A DNA stretch of 64,000 bases from NCBI GenBank assembly GCA_022710975.1, contig JAKLGA010000001.1, positions 248,001-312,000 of the forward strand, given 5' to 3'. The number at the start of each line of letters is the position of its first letter. Position 1 is the stretch's first letter. The notes beneath the pieces were generated by a model. It had not been told where the DNA came from. It was given only the letters and a program-made list of their open reading frames with translations, and made no database searches. The stretch comes from Myxococcota bacterium (GTDB lineage: Bacteria > Myxococcota > B64-G9). Position numbers and translations under genes: made by a program. Below, piece by piece: positions 23,119 to 52,716 of this stretch.

Positions 23119-24102
23119 ATGTTCGACGTGGTGCACTTGGAGCTGTGGGCCGGCTTCTGGGCGATCATCATCGCCCTGCTGGCCCTCGACCTGGCGGTGT
23201 TCAACCGCCATGCGCACAAGGTCAGCATCCGGGCCGCGGCCATCTGGAGTGCGGTGTGGATCGGGATCTCGCTCCTGTTCTGCGGCGGGGTGTGGTGGCT
23301 GCTGGGGGCCGAGCCGGCCATGCAGTTCCTGGCCGGCTACCTGGTGGAGAAGTCCCTGTCGGTGGACAACCTGTTCGTGTTCCTGGTGATCTTCACCTAC
23401 TTCGGGGTGGAGGCGAAGTACCAGCACCGGGTGCTGTACTGGGGGGTGCTGGGCGCCATCATCCTGCGCACGCTGATGATCGTGGCCGGGGCCGCCCTGG
23501 TGGCCCGCTTCAACTGGTTGCTGTACATCTTCGGCGCCTTCCTGATCTACACCGGCGTCAAGCTGGCCGTGTCCAAGGGCGAGGCCGTCGACCCCGGCAA
23601 GAACCTGGCGGTGCGCGTGGCGCGCAAGCTGTTCTCGGTCACCCCCCAGTTCCACGGCGAGCACTTCTTCGTGAAGCTGGACGGCAAGCGCCTGGCCACG
23701 CCGATGTTCGTGGTGCTGGTGACCGTCGAGCTGTCGGACGTGATGTTCGCGGTCGACTCCATCCCGGCCATCTTCGGCATCACCCAGGACGCCTTCATCC
23801 TGCTCACCTCGAACATCTTCGCCATCATGGGGCTGCGCGCCCTGTACTTCCTGCTGGCCGGCATCATGGACCGCTTCCACTACCTGAAGCTCGGCCTGTC
23901 CGTGGTCCTGGCCTTCATCGGGGTGAAGATGCTCATCGCCGAGTGGGTGCACATCCCCACGCCGGTCTCGCTGGGCATCGTGTTCGGCATCTTGACGGGC
24001 GCGGTGCTGATCTCCTTCCTGCGGAAACCGCCCCACCTGGAGCCCGTGCCCGGCAAGGACGGCGAACCCCCGGCCACCAGCGACGGCGGAGGCGCGGACT
24101 GA
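23119..24102 (+). CDS. TerC/Alx family integral membrane protein
   Basis: 327 residues, about nine membrane helices. TerC-family acidic membrane motifs are visible: EKSLSVDNLFVF and ELSDVMFAVDSIPAIFGIT. The family is linked to manganese export or metal homeostasis (Alx, TerC) and to loading of metalloenzymes. GGAGG lies 7 bases before the ATG. The 93-base leader shows no convincing yybP-ykoY Mn riboswitch. The gene is convergent with slyD (9-bp gap). Confidence 0.93.
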   Translation: MFDVVHLELWAGFWAIIIALLALDLAVFNRHAHKVSIRAAAIWSAVWIGISLLFCGGVWWLLGAEPAMQFLAGYLVEKSLSVDNLFVFLVIFTYFGVEAKYQHRVLYWGVLGAIILRTLMIVAGAALVARFNWLLYIFGAFLIYTGVKLAVSKGEAVDPGKNLAVRVARKLFSVTPQFHGEHFFVKLDGKRLATPMFVVLVTVELSDVMFAVDSIPAIFGITQDAFILLTSNIFAIMGLRALYFLLAGIMDRFHYLKLGLSVVLAFIGVKMLIAEWVHIPTPVSLGIVFGILTGAVLISFLRKPPHLEPVPGKDGEPPATSDGGGAD

Positions 24103-24111
24103 AGCGCGGGC

Positions 24112-24624
24112 TCAGCCGCAGCTCGAGCAGCCCGAATCGCAGCAGCCGCCGTGGCCGCAGGTCTGCGCGGCCTCGTGCTCGGCCAGCTCCTCGGCGGTCG
24201 GCGCGCGCACCTCGAGCACGGTGGCCCGGACGCGCAGGCGCTGGCCGGCCAGGGGGTGGTTGAAGTCCACGCGCACCTCGTCGGCGGACAGCGACACGAC
24301 CCGGCAGCGCATGGGGCCGTGCGGCCCCTGGGCGGCGAACTGCATGCCCGGCTCGAGCCTGGCGTCCGCGGGGAAGCGGTCCCGGGGCAGGTCCAGGCAC
24401 ATGTCGGGCTGCGCCGGCCCGAAACCCTCCTCGGGCCCGAGCTCGAGGGAGAGCTCCGCGCCCTGCTCCAGGCCGAGCAGGCCGCGCTCCAGGCCAGGCA
24501 GGATGGCGCCGGGGGCGAACACGAACCCCATCGGCTCCCCGGGCTCGGTGCGGTCGACCTCCTCGCCGCCCTCGGTCGAGAGCGCGTACTCCAGCGACAC
24601 CCACACTCCTGCGGCGATCTTCAT
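24112..24624 (-). CDS. slyD: SlyD-like FKBP peptidyl-prolyl isomerase
   Basis: 170 residues. The FKBP core is split by an IF (insert-in-flap) chaperone domain, as in SlyD: MGFVFAPGAILPGLERGL, then the flap, then VDFNHPLAGQRLRV near the end of the core. The C-terminal tail is Cys/His-rich (CGHGGCCDSGCSSCG), the metal (Ni) binding tail of SlyD. I chose the ATG at 24624 because GGAGGAG lies 7 bases upstream and the family begins MKIAAGxxV. It is on the same strand as, and 106 bp downstream of, the large 24731-28432 gene, so it could be the last gene of that operon. Confidence 0.92.
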   Translation of the reverse strand: MKIAAGVWVSLEYALSTEGGEEVDRTEPGEPMGFVFAPGAILPGLERGLLGLEQGAELSLELGPEEGFGPAQPDMCLDLPRDRFPADARLEPGMQFAAQGPHGPMRCRVVSLSADEVRVDFNHPLAGQRLRVRATVLEVRAPTAEELAEHEAAQTCGHGGCCDSGCSSCG

Positions 24625-24730
24625 GCGCGGCTCCTCCAGCGGCACGGCCGGAGAATCCGCACCGCGCGAACTCCCGAGGCGTGACGGACGTTCGGCGCAG
24701 CCTACCCGGCCCCGGTCGGGACCGCAAGGC

Positions 24731-27700
24731 TCACGCCTCCTGGCCGAGCTGGCCGGCGGCCAGGGCGTGGCACAGCCCCCGCTGGAAGGCGAGCTCGTCC
24801 TCCGGGATCACCACGTGCAGCTGCTCCTGGAGCAGGCAGGCCGAGGCCAGCAGCAGCAGGCACAGCGCCTCCGGGTCGCCGGGCCGCGCCAGCGCGGCGC
24901 GGGTGAGGGCGTGCTCGCGGTTGAGCACGAGCCGAAGCCCGGACGGAGCGCCTTGCGCATCCAGCAGGCAGGTGGCGGCGCCCAGGCGCCAGGGCGCGAA
25001 GGACAGGGGATCCTGGGAGGCGAGCGCCCGGGGCGGACGCTGCAGCTCGACCTGGAGCGGCAGCTCCAGGCGCCCCCCGCCGTCCGCGCCCAGGGCGTGC
25101 AGCCAGCGCGCCAGGGCGCGGGTCAGGCCGGCCTGCCCCGTCGCCGGCGTGTCCTCTACCCCGGAAGGCGCAGGCGAGCGGCCGAGCCGCGCCAGGCGGC
25201 CGGGCGCCCGCAGGCCGTCCAGCCAGGCCGCCAGGTGGGCCGGCGACGCGGCGCGGGCAGCGGACCAGGCGCTCGCGCGCCTGGGATCGTCCAGGGCCTC
25301 GGGCCCGAAGGCGCACAGCTCCAGGAGGAGCCGCCGCCCGCTGGCGCGGTGGACCGGGCGCGCGCCGTCCGGCGCGCCGAGCGGGAACAGCGGCAGATCG
25401 AGCACCCGCCCGACCAGCGGCCGGGACACCTCGAGCAGGCGCGCGCCGCTGGCGTCCTCGACCAGCCGGAGGCGTCGGCCGGCGTAGGCCAGCAGGACCG
25501 CCTCGACACGGGCCGTGTCGCCCGCCGGCAGCGGGTCCGCGGCGCCGCCCAGGCGCAGCAGCAGGCGCTCGCCCAGGCGCTCGAGCGCCGCCTCCAGGGC
25601 GTCCTCGGCCGCGACCAGGGCCTCCTCGGGCGGCAGGGGCGCGAGCAGCCGGAGCGCGCCTACCAGGCCGCGCACCGGCACCCGCGCGGACAGGCGCGCC
25701 CGGAGGCGCAGGCGCTCGTCCAGGAGCACCAGCGCGCCGCGCACGCCGGCCTCGGCCGGGATGCCCACCCGGCCGGCCACGCTCTCCCCTACCACCTCGG
25801 CCGACTCGAGGAAGGCGCGCACGGGCGGGGCCGGATCGGCCTCGGCCTCGGCGTCCGAGAGGTCGAAGTCGAAGTCCAGCCGGAAGTCTCCCAGCCGGGC
25901 GAGCAGCTGCGCCGCGAACGGGCTCGCCGCCACGGAGCCCACCGGACGGCGACCGGGGCGGCGGGCGGAGGCGGCCGCGCGGAGCGCGGCGAGCTCGGCC
26001 TGCCCCAGCTCGCCGGCCAGGGTCAGGCGGAGCGGCCGGCCTTCGGCCAGGGCCCCTGCCAGTCGGCGCGGGCTGAGCGCCTGCCCATCCTCCTCCAGCA
26101 GCAGCGGCAGGTCGGCCAGCCCGAGCTCGTCGAGCTGCTCGAGCTCTCCGCGCCGGAGCCCGCCGAGCGCGAGCCACTGGAGGTGACGCAGCGCCTGGCG
26201 CCGGTCCTCCTCGTCCGCGCCGACGTCCAGGCAGCGGGCGCGGAGCTGGGCGGCCAGGCTGCGGAGCGCCTCCGCCCGCGCGCCGGCGGCCAGGCCGGCG
26301 GGGTCCGCGCCCTCCACCTGCAGGGGGAAGTCGGCGAAGGTCCGCAGGCCCACGGCCATGTCCCGGACCCGCAGGCCGGCGGCCTCGGCCAGCACCTCGC
26401 GCCGATCCACCCGGCACAGGCAGCCCGATCCCAGCAGGGCGGCCAGGCGCGCTTCGCCCTCGGCCTCGAGGGCCAGGATGCGGCCTCGCTCCAGCCCGTC
26501 CAGGTCGGCGGGCACGACCTCGACGGTGGTGTAGACCAGGCCGCCGGTCGCGGGCAGGCTCGCCAGCAGCTCGCGCAGGGAGAGCCGCGCCCCCGACAGG
26601 GTGGCGAAGGCCGGCACGTCCAGCAGGGCCTCCTCGCCGTGGAGCAGCGACGCGGCCAGGCGGGGGGGGGCGCCCGGGCCGAGGCCGGCGCGGAAGCGCA
26701 CGGCTGCGCCCCGGGACAGCGCCTGGAGCAGGAGCCGCTGGGGCGCGGGCTGGCTGCAGTCGAGCCCCCCGTGGGCCGACAGACCGCGCACCACGCGGGC
26801 GGCCAGCGTGGCCTGGGCCTCGCGCGCCAGGCCGAGCACGTGGGCGGCCAGCCGCTCGGCCAGGCAGGGCCGCGGGCCGCCGGCCCGGTGCAGCCGGTCC
26901 GGGAGTGTGTCCGGGAGCCGCACGACCAGCCACTGGCCGGCGAAGTCGCTCGCCAGCCGCCCCTCCCAGACCACGCGCCCGCTGGTCAGCACCTGGGCCC
27001 ACACGCCCGGGCCCGCCGGGCCCGGCGCGGCCGGGGCGTACAGGCTGGCCTCGAGCCCGGTCTCCGCGCCGCCCTCGGCCAGGGCGCCCTCCAGCCCCGC
27101 GGGCAACGCCGCCCTGCCGAGCGGCGGCAGGGCCAGCGGGGCGGCCAGCCAGGGCTCGGGGGGAGGCGGGGCGGGCGGCCGGGCGAAGAAGCGCAGCTCC
27201 TCGGGCCGCGAGAGGTCGGGGCACACCAGGGACACGTCGGGCCCGGCCAGGCTGCGCAGGCCCGGGAGCTCGGCCGGCGGGCAGACGATCACCGGCGCCT
27301 GCAGGGCCTGGCCCACGCCTTCGGCCCGGCCGCGGGCCTCGCCGTCCTCGGCCGTGGCCGGGGGCACGACGACCACCCTGCCCTGGGCCCGCAGCCAGGG
27401 TCCGAGCGCGCCGGGCGCGAAGGCCGCGCCCGCGAGCTGGCGCACGGCGTGCAGCCCTGGGGCGGGCCCGCCCTGGCAGAGCCGGAGCGCGTAGGGCCGC
27501 AGGCGCACCAGCAGCTCCGCGAAGACCTCGTCCCTCACGACGGCGGAGTGGTCCGCGGTCTTGCGCAGGCGATCGAAGCTGACCGCTCCGCCGATCGGGG
27601 CGCCGGGGACCAGGGTCAGGGACACGGACTGCACCCACACGCCGTAGGTGATCAGGCGCACGCTGGGCTGGAAGCGCAGCAGGCGGGCCTCCTGGGGCTC

Positions 27701-28432
27701 GAGCCCCTCGGGCGCGGGCAGGCCCGTGCGCGGGGCCAGCCCCAGCGTGCCGGTGAGGTCGCCCTCGTCGAAGGCCACGCTCGGGTGGTAGCCCCAGGCG
27801 CGCGGGATGCGCTGCCGGCCCGGGCCGAAGGGCGCCCGCAGGCCCACCAGGATCGGCACCGGCGTGCACAGACAGCGCGTCTCGATGGCCTCGACCTCAT
27901 CGGCCGTGCGGGCCCCGGACGGGACCAGGGGGCGCTGCAGGCCCGTGGCGTGGACGTAGCTCCAGTCCAGGGCCTGATCGGCCTCGCCGACCTCGAGGCT
28001 GAGGCCCTCCGGGCCCCGCGGCTGGAGCGCCAGCCGGTGGGCCCGCCGCCCGTCGCCGGACTCCAGCGCGATCTCGCGCGGGTGGAAGTGGCGCAGCGCG
28101 TTCAGCCCGAGCGCCAGGTGGCGCAGGCGCGCGACCGCGAGCTGGTCCTGGGAGGCGAACAGGTAGTCGAGCAGGTGCTGCAGCTCATCCCGGGACAGGC
28201 TCCAGCCCTGCCAGGCGAACAGGCTGTGCTCCGGGCCGACGTCGACGTGGATCACCCGCGCGCCGCCGGCCACCGCCGCCTGCACCAGCTCGAGCACATA
28301 GAAGTGGGGATCCGCCAGGGCGAAGTCGCGCAGCTTCCGCAGGGCCTCGTCGCGGGCCAGGCTGAAGCGCCGCCGCTCGGAGAAGCCGGCGCCCCGCCGC
28401 GAGCGCGCGATGACCTCCTCGATGCCTGCCAC
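24731..28432 (-). CDS. Giant protein with a degenerate GHKL (Hsp90-like) N-terminus
   Basis: 1233 residues from a GTG that directly follows the stop of the upstream Hsp90-like gene. The first ~125 residues align by eye with the partner's ATP-binding domain. ELVQAAVAGGA matches ELVQNSIDAGS, and LDYLFAS matches LTRLFAS. But the Mg-binding Asn is Ala (residue 52), the DxGxG loop is replaced by AWQGW, and the glycine-rich lid GKFGIG is replaced by LRHLALG. Glu48 is kept. It is therefore probably a pseudo-ATPase partner. The remaining ~1100 residues are Leu/Ala/Arg/Pro-rich with no family I recognise. Translational coupling argues for a fixed complex with the ATPase. Function unknown. Confidence 0.75.
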   Translation of the reverse strand: MAGIEEVIARSRRGAGFSERRRFSLARDEALRKLRDFALADPHFYVLELVQAAVAGGARVIHVDVGPEHSLFAWQGWSLSRDELQHLLDYLFASQDQLAVARLRHLALGLNALRHFHPREIALESGDGRRAHRLALQPRGPEGLSLEVGEADQALDWSYVHATGLQRPLVPSGARTADEVEAIETRCLCTPVPILVGLRAPFGPGRQRIPRAWGYHPSVAFDEGDLTGTLGLAPRTGLPAPEGLEPQEARLLRFQPSVRLITYGVWVQSVSLTLVPGAPIGGAVSFDRLRKTADHSAVVRDEVFAELLVRLRPYALRLCQGGPAPGLHAVRQLAGAAFAPGALGPWLRAQGRVVVVPPATAEDGEARGRAEGVGQALQAPVIVCPPAELPGLRSLAGPDVSLVCPDLSRPEELRFFARPPAPPPPEPWLAAPLALPPLGRAALPAGLEGALAEGGAETGLEASLYAPAAPGPAGPGVWAQVLTSGRVVWEGRLASDFAGQWLVVRLPDTLPDRLHRAGGPRPCLAERLAAHVLGLAREAQATLAARVVRGLSAHGGLDCSQPAPQRLLLQALSRGAAVRFRAGLGPGAPPRLAASLLHGEEALLDVPAFATLSGARLSLRELLASLPATGGLVYTTVEVVPADLDGLERGRILALEAEGEARLAALLGSGCLCRVDRREVLAEAAGLRVRDMAVGLRTFADFPLQVEGADPAGLAAGARAEALRSLAAQLRARCLDVGADEEDRRQALRHLQWLALGGLRRGELEQLDELGLADLPLLLEEDGQALSPRRLAGALAEGRPLRLTLAGELGQAELAALRAAASARRPGRRPVGSVAASPFAAQLLARLGDFRLDFDFDLSDAEAEADPAPPVRAFLESAEVVGESVAGRVGIPAEAGVRGALVLLDERLRLRARLSARVPVRGLVGALRLLAPLPPEEALVAAEDALEAALERLGERLLLRLGGAADPLPAGDTARVEAVLLAYAGRRLRLVEDASGARLLEVSRPLVGRVLDLPLFPLGAPDGARPVHRASGRRLLLELCAFGPEALDDPRRASAWSAARAASPAHLAAWLDGLRAPGRLARLGRSPAPSGVEDTPATGQAGLTRALARWLHALGADGGGRLELPLQVELQRPPRALASQDPLSFAPWRLGAATCLLDAQGAPSGLRLVLNREHALTRAALARPGDPEALCLLLLASACLLQEQLHVVIPEDELAFQRGLCHALAAGQLGQEA

Positions 28433-30193
28433 CTAGCCTGCCCCCCCGCCGCGCCTGTCCGCGGCCGCCCCGAGCAGCGCCTCGACGGAGAGCGGCGCCT
28501 CGGCCGAGGCCAGGGCCAGCGCCCGCGCCAGCGCGCAGGCCGCCACACGCGGCTGGACCGGCTGGGCGGCCAGGCAGGCCCGCGCCTGGGGATGCTCGAG
28601 GTTGACCGCGGCCACCGGCCAGGCCTGCTCCGGGCCCCGCGGGCGGAGCCAGGCGCGCGGCATGAGCGGCGTGAGCCTCGGGCCCTGCAGCAGCAGGGGC
28701 GGCTCGGGCAGCGGATCGCGCAGCCGGCAGGCGCCGAGCTCGCGAAAGCCCACCCCGGCGCCGGCCAGCAGGGCCTGGGCCGCCGCGAGCAGCGCCAGCG
28801 CGTCCGGGCCGGGCGCCGGCAGGAGCTCGACCGCCAGGTAGCCATCCTCCGGTGCCACCAGCCGGGCGCCCAGGCGCTCCTCGGGGTGGTAGCCGAGCCA
28901 GTCCCGGGGCCGGCCTGCGTCCGCGCGCAGGTCGAGGCCGAACAGGGTGCTCAGCACCCCCAGCGCGCTGCGGCGCTCGCGCTCCAGCAGGTAGCGCAGC
29001 AAAAGCCGCCGCACCTGGCCCTCGGGGCCCTCCCGCAGGCAGAAGCCGCCCTGGGCGTGGAGCGCCTCCGCCACGGCGGTGCGCTCGGCGCCGAGCGCCA
29101 CCGGACCCTGCCGGGCGGTCGCCCACACGTCTGCCAGGCTGCGCGGCGGCCCGTCGTGGGCGGCGAGCAGCGGCCGGTCCTCGAGCCGGCGGAGCACCTC
29201 GAAGGGCGCCGCCGAGAGGAAGGCGAGCAGCCGCAGGCCGCGCCCGAGCTCGAGCGGTCCGGGGGCCGGGAGCGCGGCCAGGCGCTCGAGCTCGTCGGCC
29301 AGGGCGTCGGCCAGCGGGCCGCAAACGGCCGCCTCCAGCGCCTCCAGCACCCGGGCCAGGTTCTCGTCGCGGTAGACCGTCTCCCGGCTGAGGGTGTGCT
29401 CGAGCTTGTCCGCCCGGGCGCGGAAGCTCACCCGGCGGAAGAGCGCGGCCCGCGCGCCCACGGCCTCGTCCGTGTCCGCCGTCTCCAGCAGGGTCAGGCC
29501 GCGGTTGTAGAAGCCATGGGTGGGGCACTCCGACCACGCCAGCGCGAGCTCCATGCCCTCCGCCTCCACCCGCACGGGGCACTCGCCCTCCACCGCGAAC
29601 GGCGCGCGGATGAGCTCCGCCGGCCGGCCGGAGGCGCGATCCTCGAACCACAGCGCCACCGGCGTGAAGCGGCACCAGCGCCACAGCGCCTCGCGGGCGC
29701 CCGCGGCGAGCTCGGCGTGGCGCGCGGCGTCGCCCGGCACGAACAGGGTGATGCGGGTGCCCTCGCAGGCCGTCGGCAGGGGCAGGCGGTCGTAGCTGCG
29801 ATCCTCGTGGAACAGGACCTCCCAGGCCTCGCCCTGGCGGCCGGTGTGCACCAGCACCGCCCTGGGCGCCAGGGCGAAGATGGACACGAACCCGATGCCG
29901 AACTTGCCGATCTTGGTGAGGTCGTCCTCCTTGCTGGAGGCGAACAGGCGGGTGAGCTCCTGATCGATGATGGCCGCGGTCATGCCCTCGCCGTCGTCCC
30001 ACACGTGGATGGCGCTGGTGCCCTGGCCGCCCGCGCCGGGCTCCCACTCCAGCCGCACGTCGATCCGCCGGCTGCCGGCGTCGATGGAGTTCTGCACCAG
30101 CTCGCGGAAGCAGTCCAGGCGCGAGCTGAACTGGGAGACCAGGCTCGCCAGGGCGCCCTCGGCCGCCAGGGTGTAGCCGGCCTCCGGGCTCAT
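28433..30193 (-). CDS. Hsp90-like GHKL ATPase
   Basis: 586 residues. The N-terminal domain has all GHKL ATP-binding elements in Hsp90 order: E31-x3-N35 (ELVQNSIDAG), D66-x-G68-x-G70 (DDGEGM) and the lid G96KFGIG101. Resemblance to HtpG holds through the N and probable middle domain (VSFRARADKLEHTLSRETVYRD), while the last ~250 residues are not HtpG-like. The ATG overlaps the preceding stop (ATGA, 30190-30193) and the next gene starts at its own stop, so the three genes are tightly coupled. A chaperone-like or DNA-processing switch is possible. The neighbouring divergent nuclease and helicase genes suggest the latter. Confidence 0.82.
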   Translation of the reverse strand: MSPEAGYTLAAEGALASLVSQFSSRLDCFRELVQNSIDAGSRRIDVRLEWEPGAGGQGTSAIHVWDDGEGMTAAIIDQELTRLFASSKEDDLTKIGKFGIGFVSIFALAPRAVLVHTGRQGEAWEVLFHEDRSYDRLPLPTACEGTRITLFVPGDAARHAELAAGAREALWRWCRFTPVALWFEDRASGRPAELIRAPFAVEGECPVRVEAEGMELALAWSECPTHGFYNRGLTLLETADTDEAVGARAALFRRVSFRARADKLEHTLSRETVYRDENLARVLEALEAAVCGPLADALADELERLAALPAPGPLELGRGLRLLAFLSAAPFEVLRRLEDRPLLAAHDGPPRSLADVWATARQGPVALGAERTAVAEALHAQGGFCLREGPEGQVRRLLLRYLLERERRSALGVLSTLFGLDLRADAGRPRDWLGYHPEERLGARLVAPEDGYLAVELLPAPGPDALALLAAAQALLAGAGVGFRELGACRLRDPLPEPPLLLQGPRLTPLMPRAWLRPRGPEQAWPVAAVNLEHPQARACLAAQPVQPRVAACALARALALASAEAPLSVEALLGAAADRRGGGAG

Positions 30194-31191
30194 GGCGCCT
30201 CCAGGCCGTAGACCACGTTGCGCGTGCCGCGGCCCTGGCACCAGGCCTGCACCGCCGGCACCAGCGCGGCGGGCACCACCAGCTTGCGATCGCGGAAGAC
30301 CCTGAACCCCAGCCGCGCGCGTGCCCCGGCGCAGGCGCGCGCCTCCTCGCCGGTGCGCTCCACGGGCGCGCTGGCGGACAGCGGGTCGTTGTCGCCCTCG
30401 GCGCCCTCGGTCCCCGCGCGCTCCAGGCCGAACGTGCCCACGAACGGCGCGCCGGCCTCGGCGGCCGGCCCCTCGCTGCGCAACCCGCCCACGAACACCG
30501 GCCCCAGGCTGCCGCGCAGCAGCTCGAGCGGAGTGAGCCCGGGCTCCTCGGCCAGCCGGGTGAAGGCCAGCTCCGCGTCCAGGCCGGCCAGCGCGCGCAG
30601 CCGGGCGGCGAACTCCGCCGAGGGCAGCACGGCCTCGCCCCGCAGGGCCAGCGGCGGGCAGCGCTTGACCGGCGCCACCCGCACGTGGAGCCCGAGCCGG
30701 ACGGGCAGGCCGTCGGCGCCGAGGGTGTCGAGGGTGAGCTGGTAGGAGGCGGCCTGGCCCGCGCCGGCCTCGCGCCGGGGGGCGGCCGCGAGCGCCTCGC
30801 AGGGGTAGGGCGGCAGCCCGCCGAGGGCGGTGTAGTGCGCGTGCCGGCGCAGGTGATCCTGGTAGGGCCCGCGCGGGTAGCGGCGGGCGCGCTGCTCGAG
30901 CTCGGGCAGCGGCCGGAGCACCGCCAGCGAGGCCGGGGCCAGGGCCGCGTCCGCGCGCAGCCGCTCCCACATGCCGCGGGCCGGGAGGCCGGAGCGCAGA
31001 TCGACCTCCAGGCCGGGCAGCAACCCGAGCCGCACGGCCTGGGCCATGCAGGCCGTCCAGGCCGCCACCGCGGCGGCGTCCGGGTACTGCTGGTTCAGGC
31101 GCGCGCCGGCCAGGACCTGCGCCAGGTCCCGGGCGTAGGTCGCGGCCGCCTCGTCCTGCAGGCGGCGCATGCGCGCGGGCTCGGCTCCCAT
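30190..31191 (-). CDS. First gene of the GHKL operon, unknown function
   Basis: 333 residues from the ATG at 31191; a GTG at 31200 with a weak purine-rich site is an alternative. It is soluble, Ala/Arg/Leu-rich, with no signal peptide or membrane helix. It contains a segment with the look of a beta domain (GLHVRVAPVKRCPPLALRGEAVLPS) and a Cys-poor C-terminus. I do not recognise a domain. It overlaps the Hsp90-like gene by 4 bp. The 83-bp space to the divergent nuclease gene must hold both promoters, though none is obvious. Confidence 0.65.
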   Translation of the reverse strand: MGAEPARMRRLQDEAAATYARDLAQVLAGARLNQQYPDAAAVAAWTACMAQAVRLGLLPGLEVDLRSGLPARGMWERLRADAALAPASLAVLRPLPELEQRARRYPRGPYQDHLRRHAHYTALGGLPPYPCEALAAAPRREAGAGQAASYQLTLDTLGADGLPVRLGLHVRVAPVKRCPPLALRGEAVLPSAEFAARLRALAGLDAELAFTRLAEEPGLTPLELLRGSLGPVFVGGLRSEGPAAEAGAPFVGTFGLERAGTEGAEGDNDPLSASAPVERTGEEARACAGARARLGFRVFRDRKLVVPAALVPAVQAWCQGRGTRNVVYGLEAP

Positions 31192-31274
31192 GTCGCCCAC
31201 GTTGTCCCGCCACCCGCCGGGGTGTCAAGCCGGCGCGCTTGCCAGGCGCGCGGGACAGGCGTATCCACCAGCGC

Positions 31275-32273
31275 ATGGCCCTGGGACCCCACCCCGAGTT
31301 CGCCTGGAGCGCCTCCCGCGCGAGCCTGTTCGAGTTCTGCCCGCGCAAGTACTTCCACCGCTACCACGGCATGTGGCGGGGCTGGGAGGACGGCGCCCCG
31401 GCCAGGGCGCGCCTGACCTACCTGCTCACCAAGCGCACCTCGCTGGCCGAGTGGGCCGGGCGCGAGGCGCACCGGGGCATGGCCGCCTACCTCCAGGGCG
31501 GCGCGCCCATGGAGCACATCCTCCCGGAGCTGCGCCAGCGCATGCGCGAGCAGTTCCGCCTCTCGCGCGCGCGGGAGTTCCTGAAGCCCGGCCGGGCCAA
31601 GCTGTTCGGGCTGCTGGAGCACTACTACCAGGAGGGCGGGGAGCTGGCCGACGGGGAGGTGCGCGCCTGCTGGCAGCACGTGGAGGCCTGCCTGCAGGCC
31701 TTCGCCCGCGCCGGCTACCGCGAGGACGCCCGCCGGGCGCGGGCCGCGGGCCGGGCGCTGCACGTCGAGGATCCGGACAGCCCCGATCTCGGGCGCATGC
31801 GTTTCTGCGATCCGGCCCTGCCCGGCGTGACGATCTACGCCATGCCCGACCACCTGCTGGCGGGCGAGGGTGGCCGCGTACTGATCCTCGACTGGAAGAC
31901 CGGCCGCCCGCCCGAGGAGGCCTCCGATCGGGCCAGCCTGCAGCTCGCGCTGTACGCGCTCTGGGCCCGGCACCGCCTCGGGCTCGATCCGCTGGCCCGG
32001 GGGGCCGGACTCGAGGCCTACGAGGTGTACTGGCCGGGCCAGGCCTGCCGGGGTGGCGAGCTGGGCCCGGACGATCTGCAGGCCGCGCTCGGCCGCGCCC
32101 GGGAGAGCGTGCAGGCCATCCGCGCCTGCCTGGCGGACGTGGACGCCAACGCCGCCCGGGAGGAGGACTTCCCAGCCCAGGCCAGCCCGGCGCGCTGCGC
32201 GGCCTGCGAGTTCCGCGCGGTGTGCGAGGCGCGCGCGCTGCCCGCGCCCGCGCCCGCGCCGGGAGGGGACTGA
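31275..32273 (+). CDS. PD-(D/E)XK nuclease of the RecB/Cas4/AddB type with Fe-S cysteines
   Basis: 332 residues. Typical of the family are SRASLFEFCPRKYFHRY at the N-terminus, an Asp in MPDHLL, then ILDWKTG (the D-x-K catalytic core) and SLQLALYALW (the RecB motif with Gln and Tyr). One Cys at position 22 plus CxxCx5C near the C-terminus (CAACEFRAVC) match the four cysteines that hold a 4Fe-4S cluster in AddB and Cas4. I chose the ATG at 31275; a TTG at 31239 is less likely. The helicase gene starts 1 base after the stop, so the two make an operon: a nuclease-helicase pair acting on DNA ends is inferred. Confidence 0.88.
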   Translation: MALGPHPEFAWSASRASLFEFCPRKYFHRYHGMWRGWEDGAPARARLTYLLTKRTSLAEWAGREAHRGMAAYLQGGAPMEHILPELRQRMREQFRLSRAREFLKPGRAKLFGLLEHYYQEGGELADGEVRACWQHVEACLQAFARAGYREDARRARAAGRALHVEDPDSPDLGRMRFCDPALPGVTIYAMPDHLLAGEGGRVLILDWKTGRPPEEASDRASLQLALYALWARHRLGLDPLARGAGLEAYEVYWPGQACRGGELGPDDLQAALGRARESVQAIRACLADVDANAAREEDFPAQASPARCAACEFRAVCEARALPAPAPAPGGD

Positions 32274-32274
32274 G

Positions 32275-34122
32275 GTGGAGCCCACGCGCCCGGAGCCCGC
32301 CGAGGCCTCCCCCGGAGCCCGGCGTGAGGCGGAGCAGCGGGCGGTGGTGGCCGCCCCGCCCGGGCAGCACCTGTGCGTGCTGGCCGGCCCGGGCGCTGGC
32401 AAGACCCACGTGCTGGTGGACCGCGTGGCCGCGCTGGCGGCGTCCGGCGTGCCGGCCGAGCGGCTGGCCCTGGTCACCTACACGAACTCGGCCCGCGACG
32501 AGCTGCGCGCCAGGCTGCGCCTGGCCCTGGGCGCGGAGGCCGGCGCGCGGCCGTTCGTCGGCACGCTCCACCAGCTCTGCGCGGAGCTGCTGCGCCGGGC
32601 CGAGCCGGCGGGGCTGCAGGCCCTGGGGCTGCCCGCGCGCCCGCGCATCCTGGAGCCCGACAGCGCCGCGCGCCTGTTCGCGCTGTGCTGCGACGAGGCC
32701 GACCCGCAGACCGCGGACCGGCGCTTCGAGGCCCTGTCGCTGGCCTGGTGCCGGTGGGACGGCCTCGGGCCCCGGCCGCCGGCCCTGCTGGAGGGCGGGC
32801 GGGCCTGGGAGACCTACGCGCAGGCCATGCGCCGGGACGGGCTGGCCTGCTTCGGTCTGCTGCAGCTCTGGGCGCTCGAGGCGGTGGAGGCCGGGCTGGC
32901 CCCCACGCCGCACACGCTGTGGGTGGACGAGTACCAGGACACCTCCGGGCTGCAGGCCCGCCTGCTCTCGGCCCTGGCGCGGCGCGGCGCGTGGGTCGGG
33001 GTGGTGGGCGATCCTGACCAGGCCGTGTTCGCCTTCGCCGGCGCGGACGCGAGCCAGCTGCCCCGCTTCGCCGAGCGCTTCGCCGGCGCGGAGCTCCTGC
33101 GGCTGTCGGCCAACGCCCGCGCCCTGCCCGCGCTGGTGGCGCTGGCCGGCCGGCTGCGGCGGGGCCCGCCCCAGTTCGCGGTGCGCCAGGGGTCCGCCCG
33201 TCCCCGGCTGGTGCGCCTGGCCGGGGAGGAGCAGCAGGCCCGGGCGGTGGCCGGGGAGATCGAGCGCCTGATCCGGGAGCAGGGGCTGGCCCCGGGCGAC
33301 GTGGCCGCGCTCTGCCGCGAGGGCCTGCCGGTCGCCCTGGCGCGGGAGCTCGGGCGCCGCGGCCTGCCGTTCTGGGCGCCGCGCGAGGAGCGGCCGGAGG
33401 CGCGCCCGCACCTGCGGGCTTTGGTGCTCGCGCTGGAGGCCCTCGGGCTGCCCGAGGACCCCCGCGTCCAGTTCCTGTTCTTCGACCAGGTGGTGCGCGG
33501 CTCGGCCCGCACCTGGGCCGCGGTGCTGGCCGAGCTGGACGGGGCGGGCGGGCTCGAGGCCGCCGTGGAGCGCGCCCTGGGGAAGCTCGCCCGCCCGCGG
33601 CAGGCGTCGCTGCGCGCCTACCTCGAGGCGCGCGCGCAGCTCGCGCGGCTGGCCGCCCAGCCCGACCCGGCCGAGCGGGTGCGCGAGCTCCACCGGGCGG
33701 TCCTCGCCCCGCGGCTCGGCCTCGCCCCGGCCGAGCGCGCGGACGAGGTGGCCCGGGACGTCGAGCGCGCGGCCGGGCTGGCCGCGGAGCTCGCGCCCGA
33801 GGAGCTGGGCGCCAGGCTGCGCGCGGGCGCGCTCGCGCCCGAGCAGGCCGGCGGGCGCGTCACGCTCGCCAGCCTGCACCACGCCAAGGGCCGGGAGTGG
33901 GCGGCCGTGTTCCTGCTGGATCTCACCCAGGGGGTGCTGCCCCACCGGCGCGCCGAGGACGAGCAGGAGGAGCGCCGCCTGCTGTTCGTGGGCCTGAGCC
34001 GGGCCCGCGATCACCTGTGGCTGTGCGCGCCCGAGCGCCTGCCCGGGCGGGGCGAGGGGCCCAGCCGGTTCCTGGAGGAGCTGGCGGACGGCTGCGAGCT
34101 CGTGGATCTGCGCGCGCGCTGA
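32275..34122 (+). CDS. UvrD/Rep-like superfamily 1 DNA helicase
   Basis: 615 residues from a GTG one base after the nuclease stop. SF1A motifs in order: Walker A AGPGAGKTH, motif Ia TYTNSARDELRARL, motif II VDEYQDTS, motif III VGDPDQAVFAFAGAD, motif IV region LSANARALPALV, motif V ASLHHAKGREWAAVFL, motif VI LLFVGLSRARDHLWL. It is shorter than UvrD (~720) and lacks the UvrD C-terminal extension. With the Fe-S nuclease it resembles a reduced AddAB/RecB-type system or a defence helicase-nuclease pair. The gene is convergent with the AgmX-like gene. Confidence 0.92.
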   Translation: MEPTRPEPAEASPGARREAEQRAVVAAPPGQHLCVLAGPGAGKTHVLVDRVAALAASGVPAERLALVTYTNSARDELRARLRLALGAEAGARPFVGTLHQLCAELLRRAEPAGLQALGLPARPRILEPDSAARLFALCCDEADPQTADRRFEALSLAWCRWDGLGPRPPALLEGGRAWETYAQAMRRDGLACFGLLQLWALEAVEAGLAPTPHTLWVDEYQDTSGLQARLLSALARRGAWVGVVGDPDQAVFAFAGADASQLPRFAERFAGAELLRLSANARALPALVALAGRLRRGPPQFAVRQGSARPRLVRLAGEEQQARAVAGEIERLIREQGLAPGDVAALCREGLPVALARELGRRGLPFWAPREERPEARPHLRALVLALEALGLPEDPRVQFLFFDQVVRGSARTWAAVLAELDGAGGLEAAVERALGKLARPRQASLRAYLEARAQLARLAAQPDPAERVRELHRAVLAPRLGLAPAERADEVARDVERAAGLAAELAPEELGARLRAGALAPEQAGGRVTLASLHHAKGREWAAVFLLDLTQGVLPHRRAEDEQEERRLLFVGLSRARDHLWLCAPERLPGRGEGPSRFLEELADGCELVDLRAR

Positions 34123-47707: not shown

Positions 47708-48383
47708 TTCCGGGCTAGTCTGCCCCGGGTTCGAACCCCCAGGAGGAGTATCCGATGAACAGGATGATCGCGAGACTCGTGGGCCTGGCCCTGAGCTTGG
47801 CCCTGATGGGCGCGCTGGCCGCCTGCCAGCAGTCCGAGCCGGCCAAGGACGGCCCGGCGCTGTCCTCGGCCCAGGCGGCCGTCCAGGCCGCCCCGGCGAA
47901 GCCGGCCCCGGCCAAGGCCGCGCCCCCCAGGGACCCCTGGGAGCCCGGGGTGGTGCTGGTGAAGTTCAAGCCCGGCGTCACCGCCGCGAGCGCCGACCAG
48001 ATCGCCGATTCGCTGGGCCTGCGGCGGGGCAAGCCCCGGCGCGCGACCGGCGTCGACCACATGAAGATCACCACGGGCGAGAGCGTGCCGGCCGCGGCGG
48101 CCCGGGTGTCCAAGGACCCGCGCGTGGTCTACGCGGAGCCCAACCACCGCATCGCGCTGCTGAACACCCCGAACGATCCGCGCTTCACCGAGTGCTGGGG
48201 GCTGGACAACACCGGCCAGACCGGCGGCACGGCCGGCGCGGACATCGGCGCGGTCGAGGCCTGGGACATCTCGATCGGCTCGGCCAACGTCATCGTGGCC
48301 GTGGTGGACACGGGCGTGGACTACACCCACCCGGACCTGGCCCCGAACATCTGGGTGAACGAGGACGAGATCGCCGGGAACGG
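47708..48383 (+). repeat. Duplicated 5' segment, copy 1
   Basis: The leader (CTAGTCTGCCCCGGGTTCGA to AGGAGGAG) and the first ~210 codons of the first subtilase gene recur at 52041-52716. From 47802 to 48383 I find no base difference (582 bp), after which the two genes diverge at many third positions. Confidence 0.88.
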
Positions 48384-51300
48384 CATCGACGACGACAACA
48401 ACGGCTACGTGGACGACGTGCGCGGGTACGACTTCAGCTACGCCAACGACAACGATCCCATGGACGAGATGGGGCACGGCACCCACTGCGCGGGCACCAT
48501 CGGCGCGTACGGCAACGACGGGCTGGGGGTGGCAGGCGTGAACTGGCGGGTGAGCATCATGCCGGTGCGGGTGATCGGCAACCCCGAGCAGCCGGATCTC
48601 AACGACTTCTGCCTGGACGCGGCCGAGGGCATCCGCTACGCGGTGGACAACGGCGCCCGGGTGCTGTCGAACTCCTGGTGGACCGTGCGCCAGTACAACC
48701 AGACGCTGCACGACACGGTGATGTGGACCGAGGGCACGGGCGCCATCCTGGTGTTCGCGGCCGGCAACTACGGCGAGGACGTGGACAATCCGGCCAACAA
48801 CATCTACCCAGCCTCCTGGCACCCCTCCAACATGATCGGGGTGGCCGCCACGGTGCACACCGACGAGCTGGTGACCTACGAGAACACCGAGGGCTGGTGG
48901 GCCTCGAACTTCGGCGCCACCACCATCGACGTGGGCGCCCCGGGCCACAACATCCTGTCCACGGTCCTGGGCGGCGCCTACGAGCTCTACTCCGGCACCT
49001 CCATGGCCTGCCCGCACGTGTCGGGCGCGGTGGCGCTGATGCTCAGCATCCGGCCCGACCTGGATCCGGCCGGGGTCAAGGCGGCGCTGTTCGGCTCGGT
49101 GGACCCGCTGCCCTCGCTGCAGGGGGTGACCACCACCGGCGGCCGGATCAACCTCTACCGGGCCATGGCGGTGATCAGCGGCATGCCGCTACCGCCCGTG
49201 GCGCTGGCCGGCGGCAACCACACGGTCATGACCGGCACCGAGGTGGTGCTGGACGGCTCGCGCTCGTTCGACCCGAACCAGGATCCCATCACCTACGCGT
49301 GGGCGTTCTACCCGCCCGCGTGGTCCGCGGCCAGCCTGGACAGCCTGACCATCGCGAGCCCGCGCTTCACCGCGGACGTGTGCGGCCTGTACCAGGGGGT
49401 GCTCACGGTGACCGACGACGGCGGGCTGGTGTCCCAGCCCGACCGGGGGCGCATCCAGGCCATGAACCTGAACGCGCTCGACCCGGTGGTGGAGTCGCCG
49501 CACCCGTACCCCGCGGGCATCAACCAGGACTGGGTCATCCAGCGACCCGGCGCCGTGGTCATGGCGGCGCACTTCTCCCTGTTCGAGACCTACAGCGGCT
49601 GGGAGTACGTCACCATCCTGGACGGCGCCGGGAACGAGGTGGCCCGCTACAGCGGCGCGCTCCCGCCCTTCGACACCGCCACGGTGACCGGCGACACCAT
49701 GATCGTGCGCCTGGTCTCGGATCCCTGGGGGGGCGGCCTGCAGGGCTTCATCGTCGACCAGGTGTGGTGGTGCGACGCGGGCGCCTGCCCGGCCGGCCAG
49801 GGCGACTGCAACGACGACCCGGCCGACGGCTGCGAGACCGACACCTCGGACGACGACCTCAACTGCGGCTGGTGCGATCACAGCTGCGCCAAGCCCCACG
49901 CGCAGTTCGACTGCGTGAACGCCATCTGCCAGTTCCTGGCCTGCGACCCGGGCTGGTCCGACTGCGACGCCTCGCTGCTGAACGGCTGCGAGTCCGATCC
50001 GCTGAACGATCCCCTGAACTGCGGGGGCTGCGGCGCCCCGTGCGAGGCCATGCCCCACGCGCTGCCCGGCTGCGCCGACGGCCAGTGCGCCATCGTCGAG
50101 TGCGAGTTCGGCTGGGACGACTGCAACGGCGTCATGGCCGACGGCTGCGAGACCGACGTGACCGCCGACCCGGTGAACTGCGGCGGCTGCGGCGTCGATT
50201 GCATGGCGCTGCCGGGTGTGGAGAGCGCCTACTGCGACGCGGCCCAGTGCTGGCTGGGGAACTGCACGGCCGAGCCCGACCTGGTCGAGAGCCCGCACCC
50301 CTACAGCGACGGGTACGATCACACCTGGACCGTCCAGCGCGCCGGCGCCACCCGCATGCGGGTGCACTTCGCCTACGTGGACACCGAGCCTTGCTGCGAC
50401 GCGGTCCAGGTGATCGACGGCCTGGGCACGGTCGTCGGCGAGTACCGCGGCTACGCCTTGCCGGCCTTCTGGTCCGAGTGGGTGGTCGGTGACACGCTCC
50501 AGATCCGCCTGTTCACCGACTATTCGGTGACGGCCGACGGCTTCGTCGTGGATCAGGTCATGCCCTGCGGCGAGGGCGCCTGCCTGGACGGGTTCGACGA
50601 CTGCGACGGGCTGGCGGAGACCGGCTGCGAGTCCGAGGTGGCGGACGACCCGCTGAACTGCGGCGGCTGCGGGCTCGTGTGCCCGACCCCGGATCACGCG
50701 GAGGCCGGCTGCCTGGCCAGCGAGTGCCAGCCCGGCACCTGCCTGGCGGGCTGGGGCGACTGCAACCTGGACATGGCCGACGGCTGCGAGCTGGACGTCA
50801 CCGCCGACGAGCAGAACTGCGGAGCCTGCGGCGCGCTGTGCACCCCGGCGCACGGCACGGGCGAGTGCGTGGCCAGCCTGTGCACGCTGGCCGCCTGCGA
50901 GGCCGGCTACGACAACTGCGACGGGGACGTGCCCAACGGCTGCGAGGCCGAGCTGGCGACTGACCCGCTGAACTGCAACGGGTGCGGGACGGCGTGCCCG
51001 GCCCCGGCCCACGCGGCCCCCGCCTGCCTGACCGGCGCGTGCGGCCTGGGCGCGTGCGACGCGGGCTTCGCCGATTGCGACCTGGATCCGGCCACCGGCT
51101 GCGAGATCGACACCAGCACGGACGCGCAGAATTGCGCGACCTGCGGCACGCAGTGCGCCTTCGCTCAGGCCGGGGCGAGCTGCGTGGCCAGCGCCTGCGT
51201 GATGGGCGCGTGCGACGCGGGTTTCGCCGACTGCAACGTGGATCCGGCCGACGGCTGCGAGGTGGACACCCGCGCGGACGCGCAGAACTGCAGCGCCTGC

Positions 51301-51942
51301 GGCGCGGTGTGCGCCTTCCCGCACGCGGCCGCGGGCTGCGCCGGGAGCGCCTGCGCGCTGGGCGCCTGCGAGGCGGGCTTCGGCGACTGCAACCAGTACC
51401 CGGTCGACGGCTGCGAGGCGGAGCTCGCGGCGGACGCGGAGAACTGCGGGGCGTGCGGCACGGTCTGCAGCTTCCCGCACGCGGCCGCGAGCTGCGCGGC
51501 GAACGCCTGCCTGCTGGGCGCCTGCGAGGCTGGCTACGACGACTGCGACGCGGACGCGGCCAGCGGCTGCGAGGCGACCCTGGCCACCGATGCGGCGAAC
51601 TGCGGCGAGTGCGGCCACGCCTGCGAGGCGGACGAGAGCTGCCAGGCCGGCGAGTGCGTGGGCTGCCCGGACGCGGACCAGGACGGCTTCACCGACGCGG
51701 CCTGCGGCGGCGAGGACTGCGTGGACAACAACGCCGACGTGAACCCGGACGCCGACGAGGTGTGCGACAACCTGCTCGACGACGACTGCGACGGGGCGAC
51801 CGACGCCGACGACGCCGACTGCGGCGAGGACGACGACGGCGGCGGCTGCGGCTGCGCGAGCTCCGGCTCCGACACCCCGGCCTGGCTCGGCCTGGCCCTC
51901 GCGCTCGGGCTGATCGCCTCCCGCCGCCGGGCGCGCAGGTAG
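47755..51942 (+). CDS. Subtilisin-like serine protease, lipoprotein with Cys-rich repeats and MYXO-CTERM (copy 1)
   Basis: 1395 residues. Signal peptide with lipobox ALAAC (Cys 24), Ala/Pro/Lys-rich linker, an I9-like propeptide, then an S8 peptidase domain. The catalytic triad is D185 (VVDTGVDYTHPD), H241 (HGTHCAGT) and S416 (SGTSMACPH), with oxyanion N338 (FAAGNYGED). A PKD-like segment (VLDGSRSFDPNQD) follows, then two CUB-like beta domains (VESPHPY...GFIVDQV), many C..GxxDCNxxxADGCE repeats, a MopE-type Ca/metal motif, and a tail with GCGCASSGSD, a hydrophobic run and RRRARR (MYXO-CTERM). It is predicted to be exported and surface-held. AGGAGGAG precedes the ATG. Confidence 0.93.
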   Translation: MNRMIARLVGLALSLALMGALAACQQSEPAKDGPALSSAQAAVQAAPAKPAPAKAAPPRDPWEPGVVLVKFKPGVTAASADQIADSLGLRRGKPRRATGVDHMKITTGESVPAAAARVSKDPRVVYAEPNHRIALLNTPNDPRFTECWGLDNTGQTGGTAGADIGAVEAWDISIGSANVIVAVVDTGVDYTHPDLAPNIWVNEDEIAGNGIDDDNNGYVDDVRGYDFSYANDNDPMDEMGHGTHCAGTIGAYGNDGLGVAGVNWRVSIMPVRVIGNPEQPDLNDFCLDAAEGIRYAVDNGARVLSNSWWTVRQYNQTLHDTVMWTEGTGAILVFAAGNYGEDVDNPANNIYPASWHPSNMIGVAATVHTDELVTYENTEGWWASNFGATTIDVGAPGHNILSTVLGGAYELYSGTSMACPHVSGAVALMLSIRPDLDPAGVKAALFGSVDPLPSLQGVTTTGGRINLYRAMAVISGMPLPPVALAGGNHTVMTGTEVVLDGSRSFDPNQDPITYAWAFYPPAWSAASLDSLTIASPRFTADVCGLYQGVLTVTDDGGLVSQPDRGRIQAMNLNALDPVVESPHPYPAGINQDWVIQRPGAVVMAAHFSLFETYSGWEYVTILDGAGNEVARYSGALPPFDTATVTGDTMIVRLVSDPWGGGLQGFIVDQVWWCDAGACPAGQGDCNDDPADGCETDTSDDDLNCGWCDHSCAKPHAQFDCVNAICQFLACDPGWSDCDASLLNGCESDPLNDPLNCGGCGAPCEAMPHALPGCADGQCAIVECEFGWDDCNGVMADGCETDVTADPVNCGGCGVDCMALPGVESAYCDAAQCWLGNCTAEPDLVESPHPYSDGYDHTWTVQRAGATRMRVHFAYVDTEPCCDAVQVIDGLGTVVGEYRGYALPAFWSEWVVGDTLQIRLFTDYSVTADGFVVDQVMPCGEGACLDGFDDCDGLAETGCESEVADDPLNCGGCGLVCPTPDHAEAGCLASECQPGTCLAGWGDCNLDMADGCELDVTADEQNCGACGALCTPAHGTGECVASLCTLAACEAGYDNCDGDVPNGCEAELATDPLNCNGCGTACPAPAHAAPACLTGACGLGACDAGFADCDLDPATGCEIDTSTDAQNCATCGTQCAFAQAGASCVASACVMGACDAGFADCNVDPADGCEVDTRADAQNCSACGAVCAFPHAAAGCAGSACALGACEAGFGDCNQYPVDGCEAELAADAENCGACGTVCSFPHAAASCAANACLLGACEAGYDDCDADAASGCEATLATDAANCGECGHACEADESCQAGECVGCPDADQDGFTDAACGGEDCVDNNADVNPDADEVCDNLLDDDCDGATDADDADCGEDDDGGGCGCASSGSDTPAWLGLALALGLIASRRRARR

Positions 51943-52040: not shown

Positions 52041-52716
52041 TTCCGGGTTAGTCTGCCCCGGGTTCGAACCCCCAGGAGGAGAAGGCGATGAACAGGCTGA
52101 CCGAGAGACTCGTGGGCCTGGCCCTGAGCTTGGTCCTGATGGGCGCGCTGGCCGCCTGCCAGCAGTCCGAGCCGGCCAAGGACGGCCCGGCGCTGTCCTC
52201 GGCCCAGGCGGCCGTCCAGGCCGCCCCGGCGAAGCCGGCCCCGGCCAAGGCCGCGCCCCCCAGGGACCCCTGGGAGCCCGGGGTGGTGCTGGTGAAGTTC
52301 AAGCCCGGCGTCACCGCCGCGAGCGCCGACCAGATCGCCGATTCGCTGGGCCTGCGGCGGGGCAAGCCCCGGCGCGCGACCGGCGTCGACCACATGAAGA
52401 TCACCACGGGCGAGAGCGTGCCGGCCGCGGCGGCCCGGGTGTCCAAGGACCCGCGCGTGGTCTACGCGGAGCCCAACCACCGCATCGCGCTGCTGAACAC
52501 CCCGAACGATCCGCGCTTCACCGAGTGCTGGGGGCTGGACAACACCGGCCAGACCGGCGGCACGGCCGGCGCGGACATCGGCGCGGTCGAGGCCTGGGAC
52601 ATCTCGATCGGCTCGGCCAACGTCATCGTGGCCGTGGTGGACACGGGCGTGGACTACACCCACCCGGACCTGGCCCCGAACATCTGGGTGAACGAGGACG
52701 AGATCGCCGGGAACGG
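52041..52716 (+). repeat. Duplicated 5' segment, copy 2
   Basis: Copy of 47708-48383 in direct orientation, 4333 bp away. It includes the ribosome-binding site and the N-terminal coding region. Confidence 0.88.

Follow-up and report, generated by a model that had tools for sequence, protein, structure and literature searches.

An Hsp90-like ATPase encoded beside a giant putative pseudo-ATPase in Myxococcota and other bacteria

A 64,000-nucleotide stretch of a Myxococcota genome (assembly GCA_022710975.1, contig JAKLGA010000001.1, positions 248,001 to 312,000 of the forward strand; hereafter the window, in whose own numbering coordinates are given) contains three coupled minus-strand genes, in which an Hsp90-like GHKL ATPase, here named A, is followed by a 1233-residue protein, G, that appears to share its fold and to have lost its ATP site. 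We put at about one in two (roughly 0.5) the probability that A and G are unlike halves of one Hsp90-type chaperone, with the product of the third gene, P3, and two proteins encoded in fuller loci of other genomes, the AAA+ ATPase c4 and the coiled-coil protein c2, as further parts. The observations behind this reading are computational: homology between the two proteins, catalytic residues lost from G, coupling of the genes, one fusion, co-divergence of A with G, repeats in the giants and conserved partners. The genes and their main features are as follows (starts set by a simple in-house gene caller; aa, amino acids).

30190..31200, minus strand: P3, 336 aa, a conserved component of no recognised family; its start is possibly the ATG at 31191
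30190..30193, minus strand: ATGA overlap of the P3 stop and the A start, read from the sequence
28433..30193, minus strand: A, Hsp90-like GHKL ATPase, 586 aa from its ATG, with HATPase_c_3, sacsin-domain and PDB profile matches
29735..30112, minus strand: ATP-binding domain of A, residues 28-153, with all GHKL motifs (domain match and motif census)
29366..29404, minus strand: middle-domain loop of A, residues 264-276, L-E-H-T-L-S/T-R270, in which R270 is the candidate catalytic Arg
28430..28435, minus strand: A stop TAG abutting the G start GTG, read from the sequence
24731..28432, minus strand: G, giant putative pseudo-ATPase, 1233 aa, matching no Pfam, NCBIfam or PADLOC family
27467..28348, minus strand: G residues 29-322, degenerate Hsp90 N-terminal and middle region homologous to A 13-302 (hhalign, AlphaFold/Foldseek and motif census)
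27437..27787, minus strand: G residues 216-332, S5/Hsp90-middle-like module (module profile), with up to seven copies in related giants

This layout agrees with an initial annotation of the window, which had placed three coupled genes here, overlapping or abutting one another, and had ended P3 at 31191, the in-frame ATG.

Protein A has the features of an active enzyme, as that annotation had proposed in stating that all of its GHKL residues are kept. It matches HATPase_c_3 in Pfam (3e-11), and the nearest solved structures found by its profile in the PDB are TRAP1, HtpG and Hsp90. The window copy retains R30/E31/N35/D38, D66-x-G68-x-G70 and G96-K-F-G99-I-G101, and R30, E31, N35, D38, D66, G68, G70, G96, F98, G99 and G101 are kept in all 84 A proteins of a joint alignment. 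Equally invariant (Arg in 84 of 84) is R270 of the middle-domain loop LEHTL(S/T)R, a candidate counterpart, by motif resemblance and not by structure, of Arg380 of yeast Hsp90, the loop of which has a catalytic role (PMC9880540). We do not file A as HtpG, because PF00183 (HSP90 middle/C-terminal) has no match in the protein and its score lies far below the HtpG equivalog cut-off (26.7 bits vs 371; NCBIfam). The score for the MutL equivalog TIGR00585 is also below the cut-off (44.8 bits vs 180), the sacsin N-terminal ATP-binding domain NF047352 scores 53.3 bits against a cut-off of 50 (NCBIfam), and among PADLOC profiles TmtA and MzaB align with the ATPase domain of A alone, not over their full length.

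Protein G is predicted, from alignment and modelling, to have the Hsp90 N-terminal and middle fold without the catalytic residues and so to be a pseudo-ATPase. Residues 29-322 of G align colinearly with residues 13-302 of A over 267 columns (hhalign profile-profile comparison of 84 A with 74 G relatives; probability 98.8%, E 9.5e-17, E-values being those of single pairs), whereas two comparisons of unrelated segments of the same proteins gave probabilities of 0.05-0.1%, so the similarity, judged at the level of profiles, is not due to chance. An AlphaFold model of 1200 residues of G, built with 43 relatives, has a mean predicted local distance difference test score (pLDDT) of 84.6, and of about 90 over most of residues 41-320; Foldseek gave TRAP1 and other Hsp90 proteins as its top PDB matches (E 1.9e-11, probability 1.00), with MORC lower. 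Structure prediction had been named beforehand as the check on a GHKL fold in this protein, and it returned an Hsp90 N-terminal and middle fold. The sequence profile of G has no match in the PDB, and neither G nor P3 matched a Pfam, NCBIfam or PADLOC family. A scan of genome contigs with G as a single sequence found nothing, whereas the A alignment succeeded.

The window G shares the segments ELVQAAVAGGA and LFAS with A, and at the sites of A it has Ala for N35, Trp for D66 and RHLALG for the glycine lid GKFGIG. The initial annotation had noted the alignment together with the loss of the Mg-binding Asn, the DxGxG loop and the lid in this one protein, and the loss proves to run through the family: among 74 G proteins in the joint alignment, the Mg-Asn site (N35) is never Asn (Ala in 55), the adenine-Asp site (D66) is never Asp (hydrophobic or aromatic, mostly Phe, Trp or Tyr), the lid Gly99 is Gly in one and Ala in 68, and R270 is Arg in two. 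G68 is kept in 66 of the 74 and E31 in 53, as would fit a remnant of the fold.

Beyond the degenerate head that had been described earlier lies a feature that had been missed. The S5/Hsp90-middle-like module recurs along related giants at intervals of about 215-270 residues, with 86 downstream matches below E 1e-3 in 35 proteins (profile search, after iteration) and the most copies, up to seven, in the loci L076 and L113 (L and G with three digits denote loci and genomes). The first copy alone is recognisable by sequence in the window G, and weak additional copies were found in its close relatives at L041, L044 and L054. G thus has the look of a dead Hsp90 head to which a series of middle-domain-like modules is joined, and the series may be an arm for clients. 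The C-termini of A and G have a short motif in common, N..HP (hhalign 77%, E 2e-5). Near the other end, G residues 21-40 are conserved above average (0.67 vs a mean of 0.35) and weakly modelled in the monomer (AlphaFold pLDDT 50-68), the pattern to be expected if this segment were to pack on A like the swapped strand of Hsp90.

The pairing of A with G is widespread. With the A alignment as the sole query, a scan of named genomes yielded 80 A loci. The titles of their records, from which taxonomy is taken, give Myxococcales/Deltaproteobacteria/Polyangia, Elusimicrobia, Eremiobacterota, UBP9 and others, and many of the loci lie on short contigs of metagenome-assembled genomes. Cultured Nannocystis, Plesiocystis, Enhygromyxa and Paraliomyxa are among the carriers. 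G is the next gene at 70 of the 80 loci, with a 4-base ATGA overlap at 38 of these, and at L101 the two are fused into a single 1889-aa protein with the A domain at residues 2-281 and the G domain at 473-743. At L084 and L115 G lies elsewhere within the same locus, and the genomes of A genes without a neighbouring G all have G-type proteins elsewhere; G196-G199 are four of these genomes. Among 195 genomes of the window's phylum, A was found in 16, all 16 of which have G; a clear G was found in 17, 16 of them with A, and the one without A is G003, whose G is a truncated orphan. The window genome and G007 each hold two A-G pairs of different subfamilies. For 65 A proteins and the G proteins paired with them, the distance matrices have a correlation of r 0.86 (0 of 2000 permutations above 0.18), a result expected of genes inherited together and, alone, no proof of contact.

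Since G-type proteins also occur alone, as the orphan of G003 and among the 55-85 G-profile matches per genome of G196-G199, the pairing is one-sided, much stricter for A than for G. Co-occurrence had been proposed as a check, and it holds nearly always for A and not always for G. The solo G-type proteins that we read (L161-L165, L167-L169) are without the QN..DA and DxGxG motifs, and the neighbours of the few solo genes examined in G196-G199 (e.g. L161-L166) were unremarkable. Two further arrangements were seen. At L042:9950-21674, two A-G pairs from separate subfamilies follow each other (A-G-A-G). Another kind of GHKL gene pair, also adjacent and within the window's phylum, occurs at L035:5932-9436 (G019) and L036:6044-10259 (G010), with similar ones in G025 and G031. 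Its first member keeps ELVQNAADA/DDGRGM, its second keeps an E..AN.LDA helix, DNGxG and GRFGIGF, and by these motifs both seem to be active.

The same distribution bears on the idea that A-G replaces HtpG in lineages that lost the standard Hsp90, which we regard as highly improbable. PF00183 has no match in the window genome (G000), G007 or G054, and HtpG is absent from 12 of the 16 A carriers of the phylum; it is, however, also absent from about 98 of the 179 phylum genomes without A, and both HtpG and A are present in G103, G104, G105 and G137, and also in G196 and G202.

A and G belong to a wider cassette. P3 homologues were found in 28 loci, c2 lies directly before P3 in 21 of the 23 with a visible upstream gene (the exceptions are the window and L030), and fuller operons have the order c2 - P3 - c4 - A - G (L041, L066, L085, L094, L099, L104). 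Whereas the initial annotation was right that three genes are coupled, it overlooked P3 as a conserved component and the two further genes. Guesses by eye for those two were rejected: c4, read as MoxR, is a PF00004-type AAA+ ATPase (2.6e-6, conserved Walker motifs), and c2, read as TelA, has no convincing Pfam match. The window genome holds a reduced set, P3-A-G plus a second A-G pair, since c2 and c4 were searched for elsewhere in it and not found. P3 is modelled with a pLDDT of 90 (AlphaFold); Foldseek of the model gave no fold match in the PDB (best E 0.34), and its sequence profile gave no PDB match.

Multi-gene loci that include an AAA+ ATPase would suit a sacsin-like GHKL conflict or defence system that senses invaders, as would the NCBIfam sacsin domain of A and its PADLOC matches. 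We think this improbable. The TmtA match is confined to the shared ATPase domain, about 100 of 1486 positions, no effector domain was found, and PADLOC gave no strong match for c2, P3, c4 or G; moreover, the Nannocystis loci (L106, L109, L110, L114, L116) and L072/L073/L075 lie in conserved surroundings, unlike mobile defence islands.

Genes for folding helpers adjoin the pair in three separate lineages. A cyclophilin gene lies 3-100 bp upstream of A at L101, L102, L108 and L112, and a divergent GroES-like gene lies 11 bp upstream of A at L086:9564-9953, L093:9564-9953 and L098:6535-6924; the latter has a Cpn10 match in its first half only, is the third of its kind in genomes that each have two ordinary Cpn10 genes besides, and is accompanied by a DUF6941 gene after A. 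The third helper is in the window itself, co-directional with G, in an adjacency local to the window:

24112..24645, minus strand: SlyD-like FKBP peptidyl-prolyl isomerase, a candidate associated gene (PF00254, 1.8e-6), 85 bp downstream of G

A rough estimate, informal rather than a statistical test, is that about 0.1 such case would be expected, given about ten genes of this kind per genome of several thousand and some fifty neighbour slots. In eukaryotes, FKBPs and cyclophilins serve as co-chaperones of Hsp90. Together with the Hsp90-type motifs of A, these neighbours point to proteostasis, and as neighbour evidence they are suggestive only. Beside the SlyD-like gene, on the opposite strand, is a gene for a TerC-like membrane protein (23119-24102, read by eye). 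Farther away in the window are two adjacent paralogous giants of 1387 and 1492 aa with lipoprotein-like N-termini (47779-51942 and 52088-56566).

The initial annotation had left the function as a chaperone or an ATP-gated DNA-processing complex, and we favour the former because of the cyclophilin, GroES-like, FKBP/SlyD and AAA+ neighbours. Divergent from the cassette, at 31275-34122 of the window, are genes read by eye as a PD-(D/E)XK-like nuclease and a UvrD-like helicase. They would suit a MutL-, MORC- or Topo VI-like clamp acting on DNA, as would the occurrence of the fold in MutL and MORC and the precedent of degenerate GHKL subunits in meiotic Topo VI-like complexes (PMC11077084). Apart from one weak UvrD match, the other loci gave no homologues of the nuclease/helicase pair, and we rejected a role for it because it is not conserved. 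Searches of A, G and P3 against Pfam and NCBIfam revealed neither a DNA-binding nor a nuclease domain, Foldseek places TRAP1/Hsp90 above MORC, and A has the Hsp90-like middle-domain arginine motif, all of which leaves DNA processing quite improbable.

From these results we infer a physical complex with a clamp cycle, client binding and chaperone activity. A would bind and hydrolyse ATP; G, as an ATP-dead, lid-less Hsp90-like subunit, would pair with A through an N-terminal/middle clamp and probably through the C-termini, and would extend A with a long client-holding arm of repeated middle-domain (S5-like) modules. ATP binding in A would close the clamp against G, which would stay outside hydrolysis itself and yet shape and perhaps stimulate it, in the manner of Hsp90 subunits engineered to lack the lid. 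In many genomes P3, c4 and c2 would be further parts, and peptidyl-prolyl isomerase or GroES-like helpers may join in some lineages. There are precedents for such a division of labour: heterodimers of wild-type and E33A Hsp82 support yeast viability, indicating that hydrolysis of ATP by a single subunit can be enough in vivo, and in engineered heterodimers a lid-less partner stimulates the wild-type Hsp90 subunit (PMC5018835). Because it has lost the glycine lid, the Mg-Asn and the adenine-Asp, G looks, by analogy, like a natural lid-less partner.

Several points weigh against a single A-G chaperone. Heterodimers of wild-type Hsp90 with the ATP-binding-deficient D79N subunit do not support yeast viability (PMC5018835), and by analogy D79N would be the closest mimic of G. 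The missing PF00183 match sets A apart from standard Hsp90, the correlation of distances would follow from co-inheritance, and each adjacency of a folding helper is confined to one lineage. A is without an adjacent G at L065, L072, L073, L075, L086, L093 and L098, and in G196-G199, of the Eremiobacterota type, a minority of the G-profile matches are A genes and the rest are solo G-type proteins. The last two points mean that neither protein invariably requires the other beside it, and they suggest another arrangement, in which the proteins are co-expressed and do not form one clamp: A would work as a homodimer of Hsp90-like ATPase subunits, and G, borrowing the fold as many pseudoenzymes do, would be a scaffold, adaptor or regulator in its own right, with A as a transient target or with other proteins as its targets. 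In line with a separate G are the solo G-type proteins, present by the dozen in each of G196-G199, several loci at which one A is accompanied by two G genes, and A genes that remain in a c2-P3-c4 operon without adjacent G (L072, L073, L075). Set against it are the fusion at L101, the near-universal adjacency and order of A and G, and the presence or absence of A tracking G in the phylum, and we consider it rather unlikely. Of the interpretation first given to the window, the active/inactive GHKL pair, the tight coupling and a probable complex survive; the fixed ratio proposed for that complex is not supported, since several loci have two G genes per A, and the function now leans towards a chaperone.

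The preferred reading, an asymmetric A-G chaperone, resembles several known systems in part. A shares N-domain motifs and a middle-domain arginine loop with Hsp90/HtpG/TRAP1, and G their predicted N-terminal and middle fold; A differs, besides PF00183, in its short stretch between the DxGxG loop and GxxGxG, and in a natural partner that is unlike it, very large and, to judge from its motifs, ATP-dead, whereas known dead-subunit Hsp90 heterodimers are engineered (PMC5018835, PMC11687934). Sacsin and bacterial sacsin-like ATPases are similar in giant size, internal repeats and a short lid (PMC9880540), and A is above the P_loop_sacsin cut-off; the repeats of sacsin, however, retain Glu/Asn/Asp (PMC9880540), whereas Asn and Asp are lost in G, two genes take the place of one chain, and the UBL, DnaJ and HEPN domains of sacsin have no Pfam match in A, G or P3. 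PADLOC TmtA and MzaB share the GHKL ATPase domain of A over some 80-100 residues, and are of other length and architecture, with no dead giant partner. MTOPVIB/TOPOVIBL, like G in the preferred reading, have a GHKL fold that serves in a complex without ATP binding (PMC11077084); unlike G, they are eukaryotic, act in a transducer/SPO11 context and have no active GHKL sibling gene adjacent. We found no description of such an active/dead GHKL pair in the open-licence literature, an absence that is not proof, and the cassette is apparently widespread and undescribed in bacteria. We rate A-G as a system whose GHKL chemistry is Hsp90-like and which stands apart through a dead giant partner and components of its own. 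Tentatively, and with more doubt than assurance, it could be an obligately asymmetric Hsp90-like chaperone, its catalytic subunit joined to an ATP-dead giant with a multi-module client arm, within a five-part proteostasis machine that includes the AAA+ ATPase, the coiled-coil protein and P3, occurs in several phyla and is the founder of a large pseudo-GHKL family, with dozens of members in certain genomes.

Whether the halves of Hsp90 have equal or unequal roles is an open question that has been studied through engineered live/dead heterodimers (PMC5018835; PMC11687934). In bacteria, evolution seems to have fixed a design with one live and one dead Hsp90 half, and to have enlarged the dead half to a giant. 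The cassette also exposes the families G, P3 and c2, which have no confident Pfam or NCBIfam match, P3 being without a PDB fold match as well. If A and G form a complex, the asymmetry of Hsp90 would be directly testable in a natural system, and the families of the cassette occur in the four cultured genera, Nannocystis, Plesiocystis, Enhygromyxa and Paraliomyxa.

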